Source of the DNA: Bacteroidota bacterium
Lineage (GTDB): Bacteria > Bacteroidota > Bacteroidia > B-17B0 > Aurantibacillaceae
Assembly: GCA_020162035.1 (NCBI GenBank)
Contig: JAIUNM010000005.1
Location: forward strand, 124,001-188,000
Reading direction: 5' to 3'
DNA length: 64,000 nt
The position numbers and the translations under genes were made by a program. Below are positions 6,981 through 21,287 of the stretch, in pieces. Positions within the stretch are counted from its first letter, which is position 1, and each line of letters begins with the position of its first letter. The notes under the pieces are model-generated. The model had not been told where the DNA came from, did not search any database, and saw only the letters and a list, made by a program, of their open reading frames with translations.

Positions 6981-7754
6981 TTAAATTCCTTTTATGATAC
7001 CATCTTTTTGTGCTTTAATAAAATTAATTATTTGATGCCTTACATCAGACTCTGGAATTTCATTTTCAACAATTTCAAGGGCATTAGTAATATTATGCCC
7101 ACGCACAAAAATAATTCTATAAATATCTTCTATTTGCTTAATTACTTCTTTATCAAAACCTCTTCTCCCTAAACCAATTGTGTTTACGCCTATAAATTGT
7201 AGTGGCTCTCGCGCTACGCGAATATATGGCGGTATACTTTTTCTAACTAATGATGCCCCTGCAACAAAACTGTGTGCACCAATTGTTACAAACTGTTGCG
7301 CAGCAACAACTCCCTCAATTATTACAAAGTCCTCAACCGTTATATGCCCTGCTAAACTTCCGTTGTTTGCAATAATTACATTGTTACCAATAATGCAGTC
7401 GTGCCCTAAGTGCGTATAAGCCATAATTAAACAGTTGTTACCAACTTTGGTTGTCATACGATCTGCAGTGCCTTTGTGAATTGTTGCATACTCTCTAATT
7501 ACAGTATTATTTCCAATAACAGTATTAGATTTTTCTCCTTTATATTTTAAATCTTGATTAACAATGCCAATTATTGCTCCAGGAAAAATTTGACAATTAT
7601 CACCAATTATTGTGTCTGGATAAATAACTGCATTTGGATGTATGTAACAATTATCGCCTATTACAACATTTTCATAAATTGTAGCAAACGAGGAAACGGT
7701 AACGTTATTGCCAAGTTGAGCTTTAGAACTTATACTAGCTAAATTTGAAATCAT
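6981..7754 (-). CDS. lpxA: Acyl-[ACP]--UDP-N-acetylglucosamine O-acyltransferase
   Basis: The first enzyme of lipid A synthesis: it transfers a 3-hydroxyacyl chain from ACP to UDP-GlcNAc in the cytoplasm. The 257 residues (usual length) are mostly left-handed beta-helix hexapeptide repeats (IGDNCYIHP, IGNNTVI, VGNNCLI). MAYTHLGHDC holds His118, aligned with the catalytic His125 of E. coli LpxA, and LAGHITVEDF follows as in the family. It lies two bases downstream of lpxC-fabZ and two upstream of the ABC ATPase. Confidence 0.95.
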   Translation of the reverse strand: MISNLASISSKAQLGNNVTVSSFATIYENVVIGDNCYIHPNAVIYPDTIIGDNCQIFPGAIIGIVNQDLKYKGEKSNTVIGNNTVIREYATIHKGTADRMTTKVGNNCLIMAYTHLGHDCIIGNNVIIANNGSLAGHITVEDFVIIEGVVAAQQFVTIGAHSFVAGASLVRKSIPPYIRVAREPLQFIGVNTIGLGRRGFDKEVIKQIEDIYRIIFVRGHNITNALEIVENEIPESDVRHQIINFIKAQKDGIIKGI

Positions 7755-7756
7755 TT

Positions 7757-9175
7757 TTATGCTTCAACAGGTTTTTCTATTCCTTTAACTTTTACAATTT
7801 GTGCCATCATTTCAGCCTCCATTACAGGTTTGTTGTTTACATAGGCAACCCCTCTCATGTGGCATATTCCTCTTCTAATTGGTGTTACTAAATTTAAGCT
7901 AAACACTACAGTATCACCCGGAATAACTTTTTGTTTAAATTTTACACCATCTATTTTCATAAAATAAGTTAGGTAATTTTCAGGGTCTGGTACAGTTTTT
8001 AAAACTAATACACCTCCGCATTGTGCCATTGCTTCAATTAACATTACTCCTGGCATTACGGGTTCGCCAGGGAAATGGCCTTTAAAAAACTCTTCGTTTA
8101 ATGTAACGTTTTTAACCCCTATTACATGTTCTAATGATAATTCCATAATTTTATCTACCAACAACATAGGTTGACGGTGAGGTAAAATTTTCATTATGTC
8201 ATTAATGTTTAATAACGGCGGTTTATTTAAATCAACCTTAGGATAATCTTTTTCTATTTTTTGTTTTTTAATAGCGGCTTTAATTATTTTGGCAAAAGCA
8301 ATGTTACCATTATGCCCTGGGCGCGCAGCTAAAACATGTATTTTTAAAGGTTTTCCTACTAAAGCTAAATCTCCAATAATATCTAATAATTTATGGCGTG
8401 CTGGCTCATTATAAAAATGCAAAGCTGTATTATTTAAAACACCTTTTCCTTTAACCTCAACATGTTCTTTATTAAACACCTTTTTTAAATGATCTAGTTT
8501 ATCTTTTGGTAATTCTTTGTCAACTAAAACTATTGCGTTATCTAAATCGCCTCCTTTTATAAGGTTGTGTTGTAATAACATTTCTAGTTCGTGCAAAAAC
8601 ACAAAAGTTCTACACTTACTAATTTCTTGTTTAAATTGAGTTATGTCGTATATTCCTGCATGTTGAGTGCCTAAAACATCGCTATTATAATCAACCATAA
8701 CTGTAATGCGATATGCATCTTGAGGCACAGCTAACATTTCTACTTTTTTAACAGGGTCTTCAAACGTTAAATTATCTGTTAACTCAAAGTATTCTCTTTC
8801 TGCATCTTGTTCCTCTATTTCTGCGGCTTCTAAGGCTTCAATAAATTTCCACGAACTGCCATCCATAATAGGCATTTCAGCTTCTGTCATTTGAATTAAG
8901 CAATTATCAATACCTAAGCCTACTAATGCAGCAAGTACATGTTCTGTTGTATATACTCGTACGCCATTTTTTTCGAGTGTTGTTCCTCGGCTTGTATCAA
9001 CTACCAAATCAGCATCTGCATCAATTATGGGTTGACCTTCAACATCCATGCGTTGAAATTTATACCAATGATTAACGGGTGCGGGATTAAAAGTTATTGT
9101 AACACTTTTACCTGTGTGTAATCCTTTACCCGAAATAGAAACCGCTTGTTTTATTGTTCTTTGCTTATCACTCAT
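7757..9175 (-). CDS. lpxC/fabZ: Bifunctional LpxC deacetylase / FabZ 3-hydroxyacyl-ACP dehydratase
   Basis: A 472-residue fusion known from Bacteroidota. The N-terminal ~305 residues are LpxC, the committed zinc deacetylase of lipid A synthesis: zinc ligands His79 (TEHVLAAL), His261 and Asp265 (RHKLLDIIGD), and catalytic-region His288 (RPGHNG). The C-terminal ~150 residues are FabZ, the fatty-acid dehydratase: LPHRQPMLLVD, the catalytic His367 in FKGHFPG and Glu381 in MLIEAMAQ. The fusion joins the lipid A and fatty-acid branches that compete for 3-hydroxyacyl-ACP. TATATTTA just upstream (9193-9200) is a likely promoter. Confidence 0.97.
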   Translation of the reverse strand: MSDKQRTIKQAVSISGKGLHTGKSVTITFNPAPVNHWYKFQRMDVEGQPIIDADADLVVDTSRGTTLEKNGVRVYTTEHVLAALVGLGIDNCLIQMTEAEMPIMDGSSWKFIEALEAAEIEEQDAEREYFELTDNLTFEDPVKKVEMLAVPQDAYRITVMVDYNSDVLGTQHAGIYDITQFKQEISKCRTFVFLHELEMLLQHNLIKGGDLDNAIVLVDKELPKDKLDHLKKVFNKEHVEVKGKGVLNNTALHFYNEPARHKLLDIIGDLALVGKPLKIHVLAARPGHNGNIAFAKIIKAAIKKQKIEKDYPKVDLNKPPLLNINDIMKILPHRQPMLLVDKIMELSLEHVIGVKNVTLNEEFFKGHFPGEPVMPGVMLIEAMAQCGGVLVLKTVPDPENYLTYFMKIDGVKFKQKVIPGDTVVFSLNLVTPIRRGICHMRGVAYVNNKPVMEAEMMAQIVKVKGIEKPVEA

Positions 9176-9239: not shown

Positions 9240-9920
9240 TTATGGTTTAAATAAATCGGGGCGTTTAATTTTTGTTCTAATTAAGCTTTGTTCGTGCCTC
9301 CATTGTTCAATTTTTGCAGTATGACCACTTAATAAAATTTCTGGAACTTCCCAGCCTTTGTAGTGTGCGGGCCTGGTGTAAACTGGTGGTGCTAATAAGT
9401 TGTCTTGAAAAGAATCACTTAATGCAGAAGTTTCGTCATTTAAAACGCCTGGAATTAACCTAATAATAGCATCGCTTAAAATTGCAGCCGGCAACTCGCC
9501 TCCACTTAAAACAAAATCACCTACACTAATTTCTTTTGTAATTAAATGTTCTCTTACGCGCTCATCTATGCCTTTATAATGGCCGCACAAAATAATAATG
9601 TTTTTAAGTAACGACAATTTATTGCATAAGTTTTGATTAAGCACTTCTCCATCTGGACTCATGTAAATAATTTCATCATAACTACATTTACTTTTTAAAT
9701 GGTTTATACATTTGTCTATAGGTTCTATCATTAAAACCATTCCTGCTCCACCACCAAATGGATAATCATCAATTTGTTTTTGTTTATTTTCTATTGCAAA
9801 ATCACGTAAATTAATTAAATTAATTTGAGCTAAATTTTTGTCTTGTGCTCTTTTTAAAATAGAATGATTAAATGCACTAAGCATTAATTCTGGAACTGCG
9901 CTTATAATATCTATTTTCAT
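9240..9920 (-). CDS. trmD: tRNA (guanine(37)-N1)-methyltransferase
   Basis: Methylates G37 next to the anticodon using S-adenosylmethionine, preventing +1 frameshifts. The 226-residue length is normal. Family motifs are [11 protein letters not shown] at 51-61, [11 protein letters not shown] at 86-96, [12 protein letters not shown] at 111-122 and [11 protein letters not shown] at 132-142, the trefoil-knot SAM site. It starts two bases after the metallophosphoesterase stop, so both are probably one transcript. It is not in the rpsP-rimM-rplS setting common elsewhere. Confidence 0.96.
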
Positions 9921-11316: not shown

Positions 11317-14049
11317 ATGGGTAAAATAAAAGTAGGCATTTTTTTTGGTGGTCGTTCAAAAGAACGAGAAATTTCTTTTGCAGGAGGTAGAACAGTTTAT
11401 GACAATTTGAATAAATCAATTTTTGAAGCTATTCCTTTGTTTGTTGATTCATTTGGTAATTTTGTTTTGTTAGACTGGAACTTTGTTTACAAAGGTACAA
11501 TAAGAGATTTTTATCCGCCTGTTGAATTTATTCCAGCAACAAATATAGATTTTCAATTTTACGCCGAAAATTTAGGAAATTTATCTGTTAAACAACAAGA
11601 TGAACTCATTTCAAAAATTGGCAAAAAAGTACAATTAACTGAACTACAAAATTTAATTGATTTTGCTTTTTTAGCATTGCATGGGCCTTATGGCGAAGAT
11701 GGTAGAATACAAGGATTATTAGAGTACGTAGGAATCCCTTATTCAGGAAGTGGGATTTTACCAAGCGCTATTGGTATTGATAAAAGCGTTCAAAAACGTT
11801 TAATGGTAAATGCAGGATTTAACAGTCCAAAATATTTTACCATAGATAGAGAAGATTGGATTAACGGAAATGTAAAAGGTGTTTGGCAAAAAGCTAAAAC
11901 AGAAATTGGTTTACCAATAGTAATTAAGCCAGCAAACCAAGGCTCATCAATTGGTATTTCAATATTTAATGAAGATAATGAAACCAATTTTATGGCTGCG
12001 GTTGAAAAAGCTTTTTTTACAAAATGGCTCGATTGCAATTATTGGAAAAAATTATCAGATAAAGAAAAAACAGAATTTGTTCGTAGTTTATCCGATATAC
12101 GTGAAGGAATAGGAATGCCATTAAAAATTAATGTAAATCTTGTCAATTCGAGCGAAGTCGAGAAAGAAAACGTATTAATATTTTACAATCCTTACGATTT
12201 AATTTCTTTTTTAAATAATAATTGTAACTCAACTGATGGCTTTGTGTTAGAAGCACTAGACGGCGAAAGTACTGTTATGATTGAAGGGTTTATTGATGGA
12301 AAAGAATTTTCTTGTATAGTTTTAGAAGATACAGATTCTAACGGTTTGGTAATTGCTTTACCTCCAACTGAAATAAGAAAAGGAAAAGAACTATTTGACT
12401 ATAGAAGCAAATATTTACCAGGATTGTCTCGTAAAATTACACCCATAGAAGTTGATGATAAACATATTAATGCTATTAGAACAGAATGCGAACGTTTATT
12501 TTCTGAATTATCTTTTGATGTGTATGCCCGTATTGATGGCTTTTTAGGAACAGACGGGAAAGTTTATTTAAACGATCCCAATACAACTTCTGGGATGATG
12601 CCATCTTCTTTCTTTTTTCATCAAGCGGCTGAAATTGGTTTAACCCCTTCTCAATTTTTAACGTATATCATTCGCACATCGTTAAGTAAACGTATTAAAA
12701 ATGCTAAAGGCGATTATTCGTTTGTTCCATTATTAAATAAACTCGACTCATTAATTATTAGTGATAAAAGCGCAACAAACACTAAAATTCCTGTTGCAGT
12801 AATACTAGGAGGTTACTCTTCAGAAAGACACATATCAGTTGAGAGTGGAAGAAATATTTTTGAAAAATTGGCTTCGTCAGAAAAATATGCTCCAATTCCT
12901 GTTTTTTTAACTGGCAAAAGTAATAATCATTTAATGTATCAGTTGCCTATTAATGCACTTTTAAAAGATAATGCAGATGACATTAATGATAAAATAAATA
13001 ATTGGAAAATTCATCCTGTTGTAAAAAACATCATTGATAAATGCAATGTAATTACAGAAAAATATGGATCATCAAATAATTTAAACGCACCTAAACAATT
13101 AAATTACGAAACTTTAGCAAAAGAAGTAAAACAAGTATTTATTGCCTTGCATGGTAGGCCAGGCGAAGATGGTGCAGTGCAAGAACAATTAGAAAAAGTG
13201 GGTTTATCTTACAATGGTTCTGGAAAAGAAAGCTCATCAATTACAATTGATAAATACACTACCAATGAAATTTTAAATAAAAATGGTTTTTTAGTTGCTA
13301 AGCATTGTTTAATTACAATTGATGATTGGAATGAAAACAAAGAAAAAATAAAACAAAAACTTCAAAACGATTTTTCGTACCCATTAATTTCAAAGCCGGT
13401 TGATGATGGTTGTAGTAGTGCTGTTAAAATGATAAAAAACTTTGAAGAGTTTGAGGCTTTTGCAACTTTAATGTTTAGAACTACTCAAGCATTCGACTCT
13501 AAAGCTGCAAGTTTATTACACATAAAAGACAAAGAAGAATTTCCGCAAAAGCAAGTTATTTTAGTTGAAGAGTTAATTAGTAAAAATGGCGCAAAACATT
13601 TTTTAGAAATTACAGGCGGAATGCTTACTAAATTTAATAGTAAAGGAGAAATTGAATATGAAGTATTTGAGGCCTCTGAAGCATTAGCAAGTGGAGAAAT
13701 TTTAAGTTTAGAGGAAAAATTTTTAGCAGGACAAGGTCAAAACATTACTCCAGCAAGATATTCGAGAAACGAAACTGAAAGACAACTCATTTCAAATAAA
13801 GTAAAAGAAACACTTGGATCTGCTGCAAAAGTTTTAAATATTGTGGGTTATTGTAGGATAGATGCTTTTGTAAGAATTTTTGACGCCAATAAAGTTGAAG
13901 TAATTTTTATAGAAGTTAATTCTTTACCAGGAATGACACCAGCCACATGTATTTATCATCAAGCAGCAATTAACGGTTATAAACCTTATAATTTTATTGA
14001 TAGTATTTTAGATTTTGGGTTTAAACGAAACACAGTTTCGGTAAATTAA
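11317..14049 (+). CDS. Tandem (two-unit) D-alanine--D-alanine ligase
   Basis: A 910-residue protein holding two complete Ddl-type ATP-grasp units; ordinary Ddl has about 310-360 residues. Unit A (~1-480) has GGRSKEREIS (Glu16), ALHGPYGEDG, GSSIG (Ser210), DYRSKYL (Tyr366) and DPNTTSGM (Asp420, Asn422). Unit B (~490-910) has GGYSSERHIS (Glu503), ALHGRPGEDG, GCSSAV (Cys699), EEKFLAG (Phe802) and EVNSLPGM (Glu866, Asn868). Unit A also carries an insert of ~60 residues after the GSSIG strand. The product D-Ala-D-Ala is needed for peptidoglycan. Unit A has the normal specificity triad but Asp for the usual Mg-binding Glu; unit B the reverse. No other cell-wall gene is adjacent. Confidence 0.9.
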   Translation: MGKIKVGIFFGGRSKEREISFAGGRTVYDNLNKSIFEAIPLFVDSFGNFVLLDWNFVYKGTIRDFYPPVEFIPATNIDFQFYAENLGNLSVKQQDELISKIGKKVQLTELQNLIDFAFLALHGPYGEDGRIQGLLEYVGIPYSGSGILPSAIGIDKSVQKRLMVNAGFNSPKYFTIDREDWINGNVKGVWQKAKTEIGLPIVIKPANQGSSIGISIFNEDNETNFMAAVEKAFFTKWLDCNYWKKLSDKEKTEFVRSLSDIREGIGMPLKINVNLVNSSEVEKENVLIFYNPYDLISFLNNNCNSTDGFVLEALDGESTVMIEGFIDGKEFSCIVLEDTDSNGLVIALPPTEIRKGKELFDYRSKYLPGLSRKITPIEVDDKHINAIRTECERLFSELSFDVYARIDGFLGTDGKVYLNDPNTTSGMMPSSFFFHQAAEIGLTPSQFLTYIIRTSLSKRIKNAKGDYSFVPLLNKLDSLIISDKSATNTKIPVAVILGGYSSERHISVESGRNIFEKLASSEKYAPIPVFLTGKSNNHLMYQLPINALLKDNADDINDKINNWKIHPVVKNIIDKCNVITEKYGSSNNLNAPKQLNYETLAKEVKQVFIALHGRPGEDGAVQEQLEKVGLSYNGSGKESSSITIDKYTTNEILNKNGFLVAKHCLITIDDWNENKEKIKQKLQNDFSYPLISKPVDDGCSSAVKMIKNFEEFEAFATLMFRTTQAFDSKAASLLHIKDKEEFPQKQVILVEELISKNGAKHFLEITGGMLTKFNSKGEIEYEVFEASEALASGEILSLEEKFLAGQGQNITPARYSRNETERQLISNKVKETLGSAAKVLNIVGYCRIDAFVRIFDANKVEVIFIEVNSLPGMTPATCIYHQAAINGYKPYNFIDSILDFGFKRNTVSVN

Positions 14050-14651
14050 CGGTGAAATGTAATACCTAAACCAATAACATCTTGTAAGTTATCAGGGCTG
14101 TTAAAAACATTTCCGTTTGATAAGTGTAAAACGTTTAAACTTATCTCTATTTTTTTATTAATAAAATAGCTTAAACTTATTTGATGATGAAATGCTGCGC
14201 CCATTCCCACAAATCCATCATTTAATTTTTTATTTACAACTTCGCACCAAGCAATCCCTATTTGATAATTAAAATAAGTGTTTTTAAATAATAAAAAGGA
14301 GTTTCTAAATCCACCGCCAATTGCATAATTACCATAATTTGAATGGTGTAAAAAAAGCACCACATTTGTTTTTAAAAGTTTATCGTGTGCAATATTATTT
14401 AAATAGTTTAAAGCGATTTCAAAGGGTAGATAAATGTTATAAGTTAAATTAAAAGGGCTAAAAGATTGTGTAAGGTCTCTGTTTCTATAAGCACCGCCTA
14501 TAAACTCTCCTCTAAATTTTTTAATATATAAATTAAATGCGCCTCTGTTACTACAATTAGATAAATTTATACTATCTAAGCTATTACTTTGAGCAAAACA
14601 ATTGTAATTAATTAAAATTAATGTAACTAATATTTTAAGTTTTTGCTGCAT
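14046..14651 (-). CDS. PagL-like outer-membrane barrel (probable lipid A deacylase)
   Basis: About 201 residues from the ATG at 14651, which puts a signal peptide (KILVTLILINYNCFAQ) at the N-terminus; an ATG at 14666 is possible. Alternating aromatic/hydrophobic strands suggest an outer-membrane beta-barrel. H176-L-S178-NGN near the C-terminus matches the His-x-Ser-Asn active-site motif of PagL, which removes the 3-O acyl chain of lipid A. The Glu expected about 12 residues later is not evident (Gln190, Asp191), so activity is uncertain. It overlaps comF by 17 bases and the convergent ddl stop by three (TTAA). Confidence 0.55.
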   Translation of the reverse strand: MQQKLKILVTLILINYNCFAQSNSLDSINLSNCSNRGAFNLYIKKFRGEFIGGAYRNRDLTQSFSPFNLTYNIYLPFEIALNYLNNIAHDKLLKTNVVLFLHHSNYGNYAIGGGFRNSFLLFKNTYFNYQIGIAWCEVVNKKLNDGFVGMGAAFHHQISLSYFINKKIEISLNVLHLSNGNVFNSPDNLQDVIGLGITFHR

Positions 14652-15315
14652 AGGCAATACTTCCAATGGTTATTTTTATGCCTTCAACAGCTTTTAAATG
14701 TTGCCAGGCAGCTTCTATTGTTGCGCCGGTTGTAATTACATCATCAACCAACAACACATGTTTGTTTATTAATTCATTTGGATTTGTTAATGAAAAAACA
14801 CCTTCTACATTTTGCCAACGCTCGTATTTTCTTTTTTTTGTTTGAGTGCGTGTGTTTGTTTCTCTAATTAAATTATTTGATATTATTGGTAAATTAGACT
14901 GTTTACTAATTCCTTTAGCAAAAATCTCGCTTTGGTTAAATCCTCTCTGTTTTAATTTTTTAGCGTGTAAAGGAATTGGAATTATACAATCCAAATCATT
15001 TAAATCATTTTTAAACTTTAATGCAAATTGGTTACCAATAAATTCAGCTAACTCATTTTGTTCTTGATATTTTATTGAGTGTAGTAGTTTTTGTACTTTT
15101 CCATCTTTTAAAAACACATATAAACAAAACGTGTTTTTAACAGGTATTCGTCCTGCAAAAATTAAATTTATTTTGCTCTTATGTTGATTTACGCTGTTAG
15201 GTAAGTTAATTAGGCATTTATTACACATAAACTGTTCGTGCTTATAAAGAACATCTAAACAAGCTTCGCAATTTCTTGGAAATATTAATGACAAAAAATC
15301 GTTAATAAAACTCAT
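14635..15315 (-). CDS. ComF family amidophosphoribosyltransferase-like protein
   Basis: 226 residues. The N-terminal zinc finger has Cys16, Cys19, Cys31 and Cys34. The C-terminal phosphoribosyltransferase fold has the PRPP loop LLVDDVITTGAT at 188-199. ComF helps DNA uptake in naturally competent bacteria, where it acts on the incoming single strand; in Bacteroidota it is widespread and often unlinked to other com genes, as here. The PagL-like gene starts inside its 3' end. Confidence 0.9.
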   Translation of the reverse strand: MSFINDFLSLIFPRNCEACLDVLYKHEQFMCNKCLINLPNSVNQHKSKINLIFAGRIPVKNTFCLYVFLKDGKVQKLLHSIKYQEQNELAEFIGNQFALKFKNDLNDLDCIIPIPLHAKKLKQRGFNQSEIFAKGISKQSNLPIISNNLIRETNTRTQTKKRKYERWQNVEGVFSLTNPNELINKHVLLVDDVITTGATIEAAWQHLKAVEGIKITIGSIAYAAKT

Positions 15316-19950: not shown

Positions 19951-20361
19951 TCACTTATTTAAAACAACGCCTTTATACCTTAATTTTATTGGGGTTTTAC
20001 TACCGTTACTGTGTAAAAGTGCCGTTCTATCTTGCCTATCGTATGTAGTAGTTGTATTAAAAATTAATGTTACACTTTGTGTAGTATTTGGCAAAATTGG
20101 CTTTTTATTATATTCACTAGTTGTACAACTGCAACTTACTTCAACACTATCTATTAACAGAGGCGCATTTCCTATGTTTTTTACCTCATAAATAATTTTT
20201 ACAATTTCTCCTTTTTTTACAAAACCAAAGTTTTTTTTAGCATCAACAATTTCAATTTTTGCTTGAGCATTTAATACATTTGAAAAAAGAAAAAGTATAA
20301 AAAAAATCCCACAAATTTTTATTGTGGGATTTTCATATTTAAATCTTAAATTATTTTGCAT
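19951..20361 (-). CDS. DUF1573 domain protein (third of a tandem set)
   Basis: About 136 residues from the ATG at 20361; an ATG at 20388 is also open. A hydrophobic signal (IKICGIFFILFLFSNVLNAQ) leads into a DUF1573 domain (FGFVKKGEIVKIIYEVKNIGNAPLL, CSCTTSEY), an Ig-like periplasmic fold of unknown role. It overlaps the upstream paralogue by 11 bases. A strong terminator hairpin of that paralogue lies inside the signal-peptide codons, so the true start or the level of read-through is uncertain. Confidence 0.75.
   Translation of the reverse strand: MQNNLRFKYENPTIKICGIFFILFLFSNVLNAQAKIEIVDAKKNFGFVKKGEIVKIIYEVKNIGNAPLLIDSVEVSCSCTTSEYNKKPILPNTTQSVTLIFNTTTTYDRQDRTALLHSNGSKTPIKLRYKGVVLNK
20303..20333 (-). 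terminator. Rho-independent terminator inside a coding sequence
   Basis: A perfect 12-base inverted repeat (AAAATCCCACAA / TTGTGGGATTTT) with a 7-base loop and a T-run on the minus strand. It lies 18-48 bases beyond the stop of the DUF1573 gene at 20351-20767 but also inside the 5' codons of the next DUF1573 gene. It would act as a terminator for the first two genes or an attenuator for the third. Confidence 0.8.
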
Positions 20362-20767
20362 CTTCCATAGGCTTAGCTTTAATTTCACCTTTAATCCTTA
20401 TCTTAATAGTTGCAATTTTTGCATTGCTACTTACAGTTACATTTTTATCAAACCTTCCTTCACGTTTAGTGTCGTACTTTACCTTAATTACACCACTTTT
20501 ACCAGGTAAAATTGGTTCTTGTGGCCAGCCCGGCTTACCATCTATTGTTGTGGCCGTACACCCACACTCACCTGTAACCGAACTAATTGTTAAAGGCGAT
20601 TTGCCAACGTTTGTAAATTTAAACTCTCTAATTCCGTTTGCATCATAATCAATTGATCCATAATCTAAAATTTCAGAATCAAATTTAATGTCTGGCGCAT
20701 TGGCATCTGTTTGCGCAATTACAAAACTTCCAAAAAATGTAAGTAATACTACTATTAACTTTTTCAT
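20351..20767 (-). CDS. DUF1573 domain protein (second of a tandem set)
   Basis: 138 residues: a signal peptide (KKLIVVLLTFFGSFVIAQ) and one DUF1573 domain with GSIDYDANGIREFKFTNVG, a GECGCTATT cysteine segment and PGKSGVIKVKYDTKREG. It closely resembles the 20784-21287 gene, 16 bases upstream, so a tandem duplication is likely. Family function is unknown; the domain is Ig-like and extracytoplasmic. Confidence 0.88.
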   Translation of the reverse strand: MKKLIVVLLTFFGSFVIAQTDANAPDIKFDSEILDYGSIDYDANGIREFKFTNVGKSPLTISSVTGECGCTATTIDGKPGWPQEPILPGKSGVIKVKYDTKREGRFDKNVTVSSNAKIATIKIRIKGEIKAKPMEDAK

Positions 20768-20783
20768 TTTATTTACTTTTTAA

Positions 20784-21287
20784 TTAGCTTTTTTTCTCAA
20801 CAGGGGCTCCTTGCGAAGTTTTATTTTCTGGGAAAGGAGTTTCAACTGGTTTTGCCTCAACATTACCTTTAATAGTTAAGGTCATAACTCCACTTTTTGC
20901 ATTACTGTTTACTGTAACTGTTTTGTAAATACCACCTACTCTGTTTGTGTCGTATTTTACTTTAATCTCTCCTGATTTTCCAGGTAAAATTGGTTGTGTT
21001 GGACATTGAGGTACTGTACAACCACAACTTCCCATACAACTTGTAATTACTAATGGTTCTTTACCATTATTTGTAAATTTAAAAATGCAATCACCATTAT
21101 CACCTTGTTTAATATTGCCATAATCGTGTGTAAGTTTATCTAATTTAATATCTGCTAAACTTGTTGGTGCAGCACTTGCGGTAGGGGTTGCTCCGTGGTT
21201 GTGACCATCGTTTGCACTATGTTCTTGCGCAAAGCCAAAAGTAGATAAACCAATAACTAATCCTAAAGTGTAAATTAATTTTTTCAT
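20784..21287 (-). CDS. DUF1573 domain protein with His-rich linker (first of a tandem set)
   Basis: 167 residues: signal peptide (KKLIYTLGLVIGLSTFGFAQ), a short His-rich linker (EHSANDGHNHGA), then a DUF1573 domain with four cysteines in CMGSCGCTVPQC and PGKSGEIKVKYDTNRVGG. The extra cysteines and histidines could bind a metal, which the paralogues lack; that is inference. It is first in a three-gene set and divergent from valS. Confidence 0.88.
   Translation of the reverse strand: MKKLIYTLGLVIGLSTFGFAQEHSANDGHNHGATPTASAAPTSLADIKLDKLTHDYGNIKQGDNGDCIFKFTNNGKEPLVITSCMGSCGCTVPQCPTQPILPGKSGEIKVKYDTNRVGGIYKTVTVNSNAKSGVMTLTIKGNVEAKPVETPFPENKTSQGAPVEKKS

Follow-up and report, generated by a model that had tools for sequence, protein, structure and literature searches.

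The double Ddl gene and its surroundings

In the window analysed here, a stretch of 64,000 nucleotides of a Bacteroidota genome, positions 11317-14049 of the forward strand hold one open reading frame with an ATG start and no internal stop, encoding a chain of 910 residues (Table 1). D-Ala-D-Ala ligase (Ddl) is a near-universal and essential enzyme of peptidoglycan-containing bacteria and a target of D-cycloserine, and is described as a homodimer with one active site per subunit. Single-unit Ddl proteins have about 310-370 residues, whereas the chain described here carries two units. The original prediction, that two complete Ddl units lie in this chain, is borne out by the presence of both Pfam domains and a predicted Ddl fold in each half. 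The domains Dala_Dala_lig_N and Dala_Dala_lig_C score 90.5 and 122.5 bits in unit A and 77.6 and 70.3 bits in unit B, all above cut-off. The general Ddl models of NCBIfam are passed by the whole chain but by neither half on its own; for TIGR01205 (cut-off 245.65 bits) the whole chain scores 354.6 bits, unit A 220.9 and unit B 139.9. All structures matched by sequence to either half are Ddl or the closely related D-Ala-D-Lac and D-Ala-D-Ser ligases.

Table 1. Features of the fused ddl gene. Residue numbers in parentheses are those of the 910-residue chain; named ligase residues follow E. coli DdlB numbering. The alignment comprised 53 fused proteins and 19 ordinary Ddl, including E. coli DdlB.
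Feature	Position	Strand	Basis
Fused Ddl-Ddl gene, 910 aa	11317-14049	+	ORF, Pfam, same-length homologues
Unit A (~1-465), near-canonical Ddl unit with Asp for Glu270	11317-12711	+	Pfam, alignment, fold match of residues 2-464 (Z ~33)
Unit A E16 (Glu15 of E. coli DdlB)	11362-11364	+	Alignment, 53/53
Unit A HG..GEDG loop (122-129)	11680-11703	+	Alignment
Unit A Lys144 and canonical serine loop KPANQGSSIG	11926-11955	+	Alignment
Unit A insert (~237-317) with conserved DIREGIG.P motif	12025-12267	+	Alignment
Unit A omega-loop FDYRSKYLPG; Lys215 and Tyr216 kept; low pLDDT	12385-12429	+	Alignment, AlphaFold model
Unit A metal site D407, D420, N422; Asp for Glu270, motif NDPNTTSG	12535-12582	+	Alignment, 53/53
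Linker (466-489), mostly one predicted helix (470-489)	12712-12783	+	AlphaFold model
Unit B (~490-910), diverged Ddl unit	12784-14046	+	Pfam, alignment, fold match of residues 490-910 (Z 34.9)
Unit B E503 (Glu15)	12823-12825	+	Alignment
Unit B HGRPGEDG loop (612-619)	13150-13173	+	Alignment
Unit B Lys144 and changed serine loop KPVDDGCSSAV; Cys for Ser150, Ala for Gly153	13393-13425	+	Alignment, 53/53
Unit B omega-loop LSLEEKFLAGQ; Lys215 kept, Phe for Tyr216; low pLDDT	13690-13740	+	Alignment, AlphaFold model
Unit B metal site D849, E866, N868, canonical	13861-13920	+	Alignment, 53/53

The two units differ in sequence and unit A contains an extra insert, as had been predicted, although its size is nearer 80 residues than the ~60 first proposed; the insert is partly specific to the source genome. 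Unit B has a conserved stretch of its own, LKDNADD, and judging from sequence conservation this stretch and the DIREGIG.P insert of unit A are candidate contacts between the halves.

At three other loci of the fused gene (L114, L117 and L104), a PASTA-domain gene follows it, and PASTA-like ORFs, recognised by sequence only, also lie beside the single ddl of other Bacteroidia (L150, L151 and L153). Because the single gene has this similar neighbour, the fused gene appears to occupy the ancestral ddl locus in the three former lineages. The neighbours in the window differ, comprising a metallophosphoesterase, a ComF-type phosphoribosyltransferase and an AlgH-like protein. A scan for promoters and terminators found these signals to be no richer than in shuffled sequences. 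On the opposite strand, a 206-residue ORF without a Pfam match (14046-14666) shares four bases with the end of the ddl gene.

Other apparent fusions and repeats were seen in the same genome. A 472-residue ORF on the reverse strand (7757-9175), lying between an lpxA-like (6981-7754) and a trmD-like (9240-9920) gene, reads as LpxC-FabZ, a fusion known from Bacteroidota. The supply of D-alanine is represented by an alanine racemase domain elsewhere in the source genome (C11:68510-69172, locus L120), situated inside an 817-residue frame such as the MurF-alanine racemase fusion of Bacteroidota is expected to give, and the steps flanking Ddl may also be fused. Further along the window, three adjacent look-alike ORFs on the reverse strand (19951-21287), with a repeated CxCT-type motif and possibly of the DUF1573 family, have apparently arisen by tandem duplication.

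Distribution and age of the fusion

The source genome is 99.98% complete, and all of its Ddl N-domain matches fall within the ORF at 11317-14049; no second ddl was found in it. Its other PF07478 matches fall in other open frames, which presumably encode other ATP-grasp enzymes. Homologues of the same length occur across the genus and the class. In the first search, all 24 genomes of the same genus matched. Almost every one of them has a single full-length chain, and in the others the chain is broken at contig ends. Within the order, nearly all of 61 genomes carry the fusion. A scan of genome contigs found relatives at no fewer than 569 loci, and most of the best 80 of these span the whole chain. 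In a census of the class (149 genomes), the gene was fused in 73 genomes from 32 families and single-unit in 72 genomes from 31 families, with none found in the remaining 4. The fusion was absent from all 46 genomes sampled from the phylum's other classes. Rhodocytophaga aerolata KACC 12507 (Cytophagales), an isolate with a genome of 9.1 Mb, again has the fused gene as its only ddl.

Only one family in the census was mixed. In family f44, one genome (G068) has the fused gene and another (G107, loci L148 and L154) has only an ordinary Bacteroidia-type ddl; the presence of both states implies replacement, loss or independent gain at least once. The fusion is the sole Ddl in every fused genome examined, with one doubtful exception, G230, where an extra ddl of ordinary length (C52:701-1000, locus L155) lies on a contig of 6,089 bases and is possibly a contamination or a recent acquisition. 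The three N-domain matches that each of G081 and G085 seemed to have look as if they came from a broken or frameshifted fusion gene, and in G043, G086 and G092 two separate matches fall on a single ordinary ddl.

Since the reading frame runs through this same junction in dozens of independent genomes, that of the isolate among them, a collapsed assembly is excluded. Nor is the gene a decaying duplicate, as the two halves are equally conserved: mean pairwise identity is 0.646 for unit A and 0.669 for unit B, and median dN is 0.322 and 0.290, respectively, with synonymous sites saturated between the fused genes. Unit B is conserved as well as unit A and evolves no faster, and it is therefore not decaying. 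With these observations, an explanation by assembly artefact or decay has practically no chance of being correct. The prediction of an old fusion rather than an assembly error thus stands, as neither a second ddl nor an artefact at the junction was found. In a phylogenetic tree each unit forms one clade with a long stem and a short crown, a shape that fits an early event after which constraint was strong. Two origins were weighed, a tandem duplication in which unit B is a copy of unit A and a fusion of two distinct Ddl. Units A and B are sisters in the tree (support 88/83), but their stems are long enough to warn of long-branch attraction, and when unit B is removed unit A shifts weakly to another place. 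The fusion is thus genuine, old and broadly distributed, and represents a variation on a familiar enzyme, not an enzyme of a new kind. No description of a fused, tandem or heterodimeric Ddl was found among the searchable papers, which cover few of the subscription journals.

Active sites and packing of the two halves

Each half has substitutions at some of its catalytic residues, but both largely keep the metal site and the lysine/arginine core. A Glu motif, an HG..GEDG loop and a C-terminal metal site had been predicted for each unit; all are present twice, the metal site in the form Asp...(Glu/Asp)-x-Asn, but the motifs of the two units are not equivalent. The positions compared are all invariant in the 19 ordinary Ddl except Tyr212 and Glu180. 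Unit A keeps Glu15, His63, Glu68, Lys97, Lys144, Ser150, Gly153, Glu180, Glu187, Lys215 and Tyr216, as well as Arg255, Asp257, Asn272, Gly276 and Ser281, and its sole change at an invariant residue is Asp in place of Glu270, found in all 53 fused proteins. Unit B retains the metal acids, the lysines, Arg255 and the Asn, and differs in all 53 by Cys for Ser150, Ala for Gly153, Leu for Tyr212, Phe for Tyr216 and Thr for Ser281. The full invariant set is present in neither unit, unit A being without Glu270 and unit B without Ser150, Gly153, Tyr216 and Ser281, and the protein should therefore be labelled a Ddl variant and not a standard Ddl.

These substitutions can be read in two directions. Unit A could be the impaired half, given that all 19 ordinary Ddl have Glu at the metal ligand changed in it, and unit B, with its fully canonical metal site, could be the main ligase. 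Judged by its serine-loop and omega-loop changes, however, it is unit B that is the less canonical ligase. The active ATP-grasp kinase Asp1 uses an Asp-x-Asn metal pair (Asp321, Asp333, Asn335; PMC9765450) at a similar metal site, so the loss of Glu270 need not inactivate unit A, which by this analogy is plausibly active.

The AlphaFold model of the 910 residues has a mean pLDDT of 84.3 and a pTM of 0.87, with both omega-loops among its low-confidence stretches. In this model, residues 2-464 match 7u9k (Z 33.2) and residues 490-910 match 1ehi (Z 34.9). An undefined orientation of the two halves should give a pTM well below 0.87, and we infer that a definite packing of A on B is predicted. Residues that recur at the interface of Ddl dimers are, in BpDdl, Gly77, Gly81, Val95, Ala99 and Asp103 (PMC6899670). 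In unit A all five positions are kept (Val95 mostly as Ile, Ala99 as Ala or Ser, Asp103 as Asp or Asn), and in unit B three of the five vary freely, with charged residues common. With three conserved contacts lost, packing of the halves as in the canonical dimer is not favoured, and the sequence argues indirectly that unit B does not use the canonical dimer face. Of the earlier suggestion of a built-in heterodimer, a definite packing of the halves is thus predicted, but use of the canonical contacts by both halves is less likely. Two chains might pair through the usual dimer face of unit A, with unit B packed on unit A by another face.

Proposed roles of the two halves and comparison with known systems

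The differing substitutions fixed in the two active sites suggest divided roles, with the dipeptide made by one half and a different function, strictly preserved in evolution, served by the other. The gene probably encodes the sole D-Ala-D-Ala ligase of the organism, an ancient tandem fusion in which unit A ligates and unit B is a second ATP and metal site with a different job. According to this proposal, unit A would bind ATP and two metals and make D-Ala-D-Ala by the usual route through D-alanyl phosphate, an acyl phosphate, with Asp420 in place of Glu270. Unit B would still bind Mg-ATP through its lysines, Arg255, both metal acids and the Asn, and the substitutions in its serine loop, at the omega-loop tyrosine and at Ser281 would equip it for the other job. 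This would most likely be control of unit A by binding of nucleotide or D-alanine, or a second ligation that is slower or differently specific; a regulatory role is suggested by the changed residues of unit B together with its conservation. To extend this to a major lineage in which an obligate two-site enzyme replaced the one-site homodimer, with one site making D-Ala-D-Ala and the other sensing or making something else, is tentative, with the chances slightly against it.

Three other readings deserve weighing. Both halves may make D-Ala-D-Ala, the fusion merely tying equal subunits together and their differences tuning kinetics. Glu15, His63, Lys97, Lys144, Glu180, Glu187, Lys215, Arg255, Asp257, Asn272 and Gly276 are indeed present in both halves of all 53 proteins, and both omega-loops are modelled with low confidence and are perhaps mobile. 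However, unit B of all 53 has Cys for Ser150 and Phe for Tyr216, two residues that do not vary among the 19 ordinary Ddl, and equal subunits should not keep different fixed states for so long. Usual dimer contacts are also lost in unit B, and together these points make this reading unlikely, if still the best of the three.

It is rather improbable that unit A is the D-Ala-D-Ala ligase and unit B a ligase with another acceptor (D-Ala-D-X), giving two products, as had also been suggested earlier. Such a product is conceivable since the Cys, Phe and Thr fixed in unit B replace residues at substrate-side positions (Ser150, Tyr216 and Ser281). In E. coli DdlB, the Y216F change shifts the choice of acceptor towards D-lactate. 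The structure of Y216F DdlB (PDB 1iow) is among the structure matches. But neither unit reaches an NCBIfam cut-off for D-Ala-D-Ser or D-Ala-D-Lac ligases, the neighbourhood of the gene showed no partners for making such a product, and the change in the Gly153/Ser150 loop suggests altered handling of the nucleotide rather than a simple switch of acceptor. Cooperation of the halves in a single reaction, each performing one step as in carbamoyl-phosphate synthetase, would agree with their having their own fixed substitutions at different catalytic positions and with the single definite particle predicted (pTM 0.87), but in ordinary Ddl one site does both steps, and we regard this reading as very unlikely.

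The interest of the finding hinges on the role of unit B. In about half of the sampled Bacteroidia families, the only ddl encodes a double Ddl whose two sites are not equivalent. The lineage-wide fixation of Asp for Glu270, Cys for Ser150 and Phe for Tyr216 amounts to a natural experiment on the catalytic residues that the enzyme really requires, and the double Ddl bears on annotation and on the action of inhibitors in these bacteria. To our knowledge, a two-site Ddl with divided labour would be the first of its sort.

Ordinary Ddl (PF01820 and PF07478, TIGR01205; E. coli DdlB, S. aureus Ddl) resembles the fusion in its domains, fold (Z ~33-35) and most catalytic residues, in being the sole ddl of the genome and, in some lineages, in its PASTA-gene neighbour. 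The fusion differs from it by having two units per chain, by the insert of ~80 residues and the Asp for Glu270 in unit A, and by the changes at Ser150, Gly153, Tyr216 and Ser281 and the dimer-face losses in unit B. In the chlamydial MurC-Ddl fusion (PRK14573), Ddl is likewise joined into a larger peptidoglycan enzyme, but the partner there is MurC and here a second Ddl; the chain scores 179 bits against a cut-off of 1015 for that model, and the Pfam search found no Mur domain in it. The D-Ala-D-Lac and D-Ala-D-Ser ligases (VanA, VanG, LmDdl2) share the fold, and LmDdl2 (1ehi) heads the structure matches of unit B, with others scoring almost as high; like unit B, LmDdl2 has Phe at the position of Tyr216. 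The scores for VanG (261 of a required 495 bits), D_ala_D_lac (197 of 550) and D_ala_D_ser (179 of 520) all stay below cut-off. The large subunit of carbamoyl-phosphate synthetase also carries two homologous ATP-grasp halves with divided roles in one chain, but it belongs to another family with another chemistry and serves as an analogy only.
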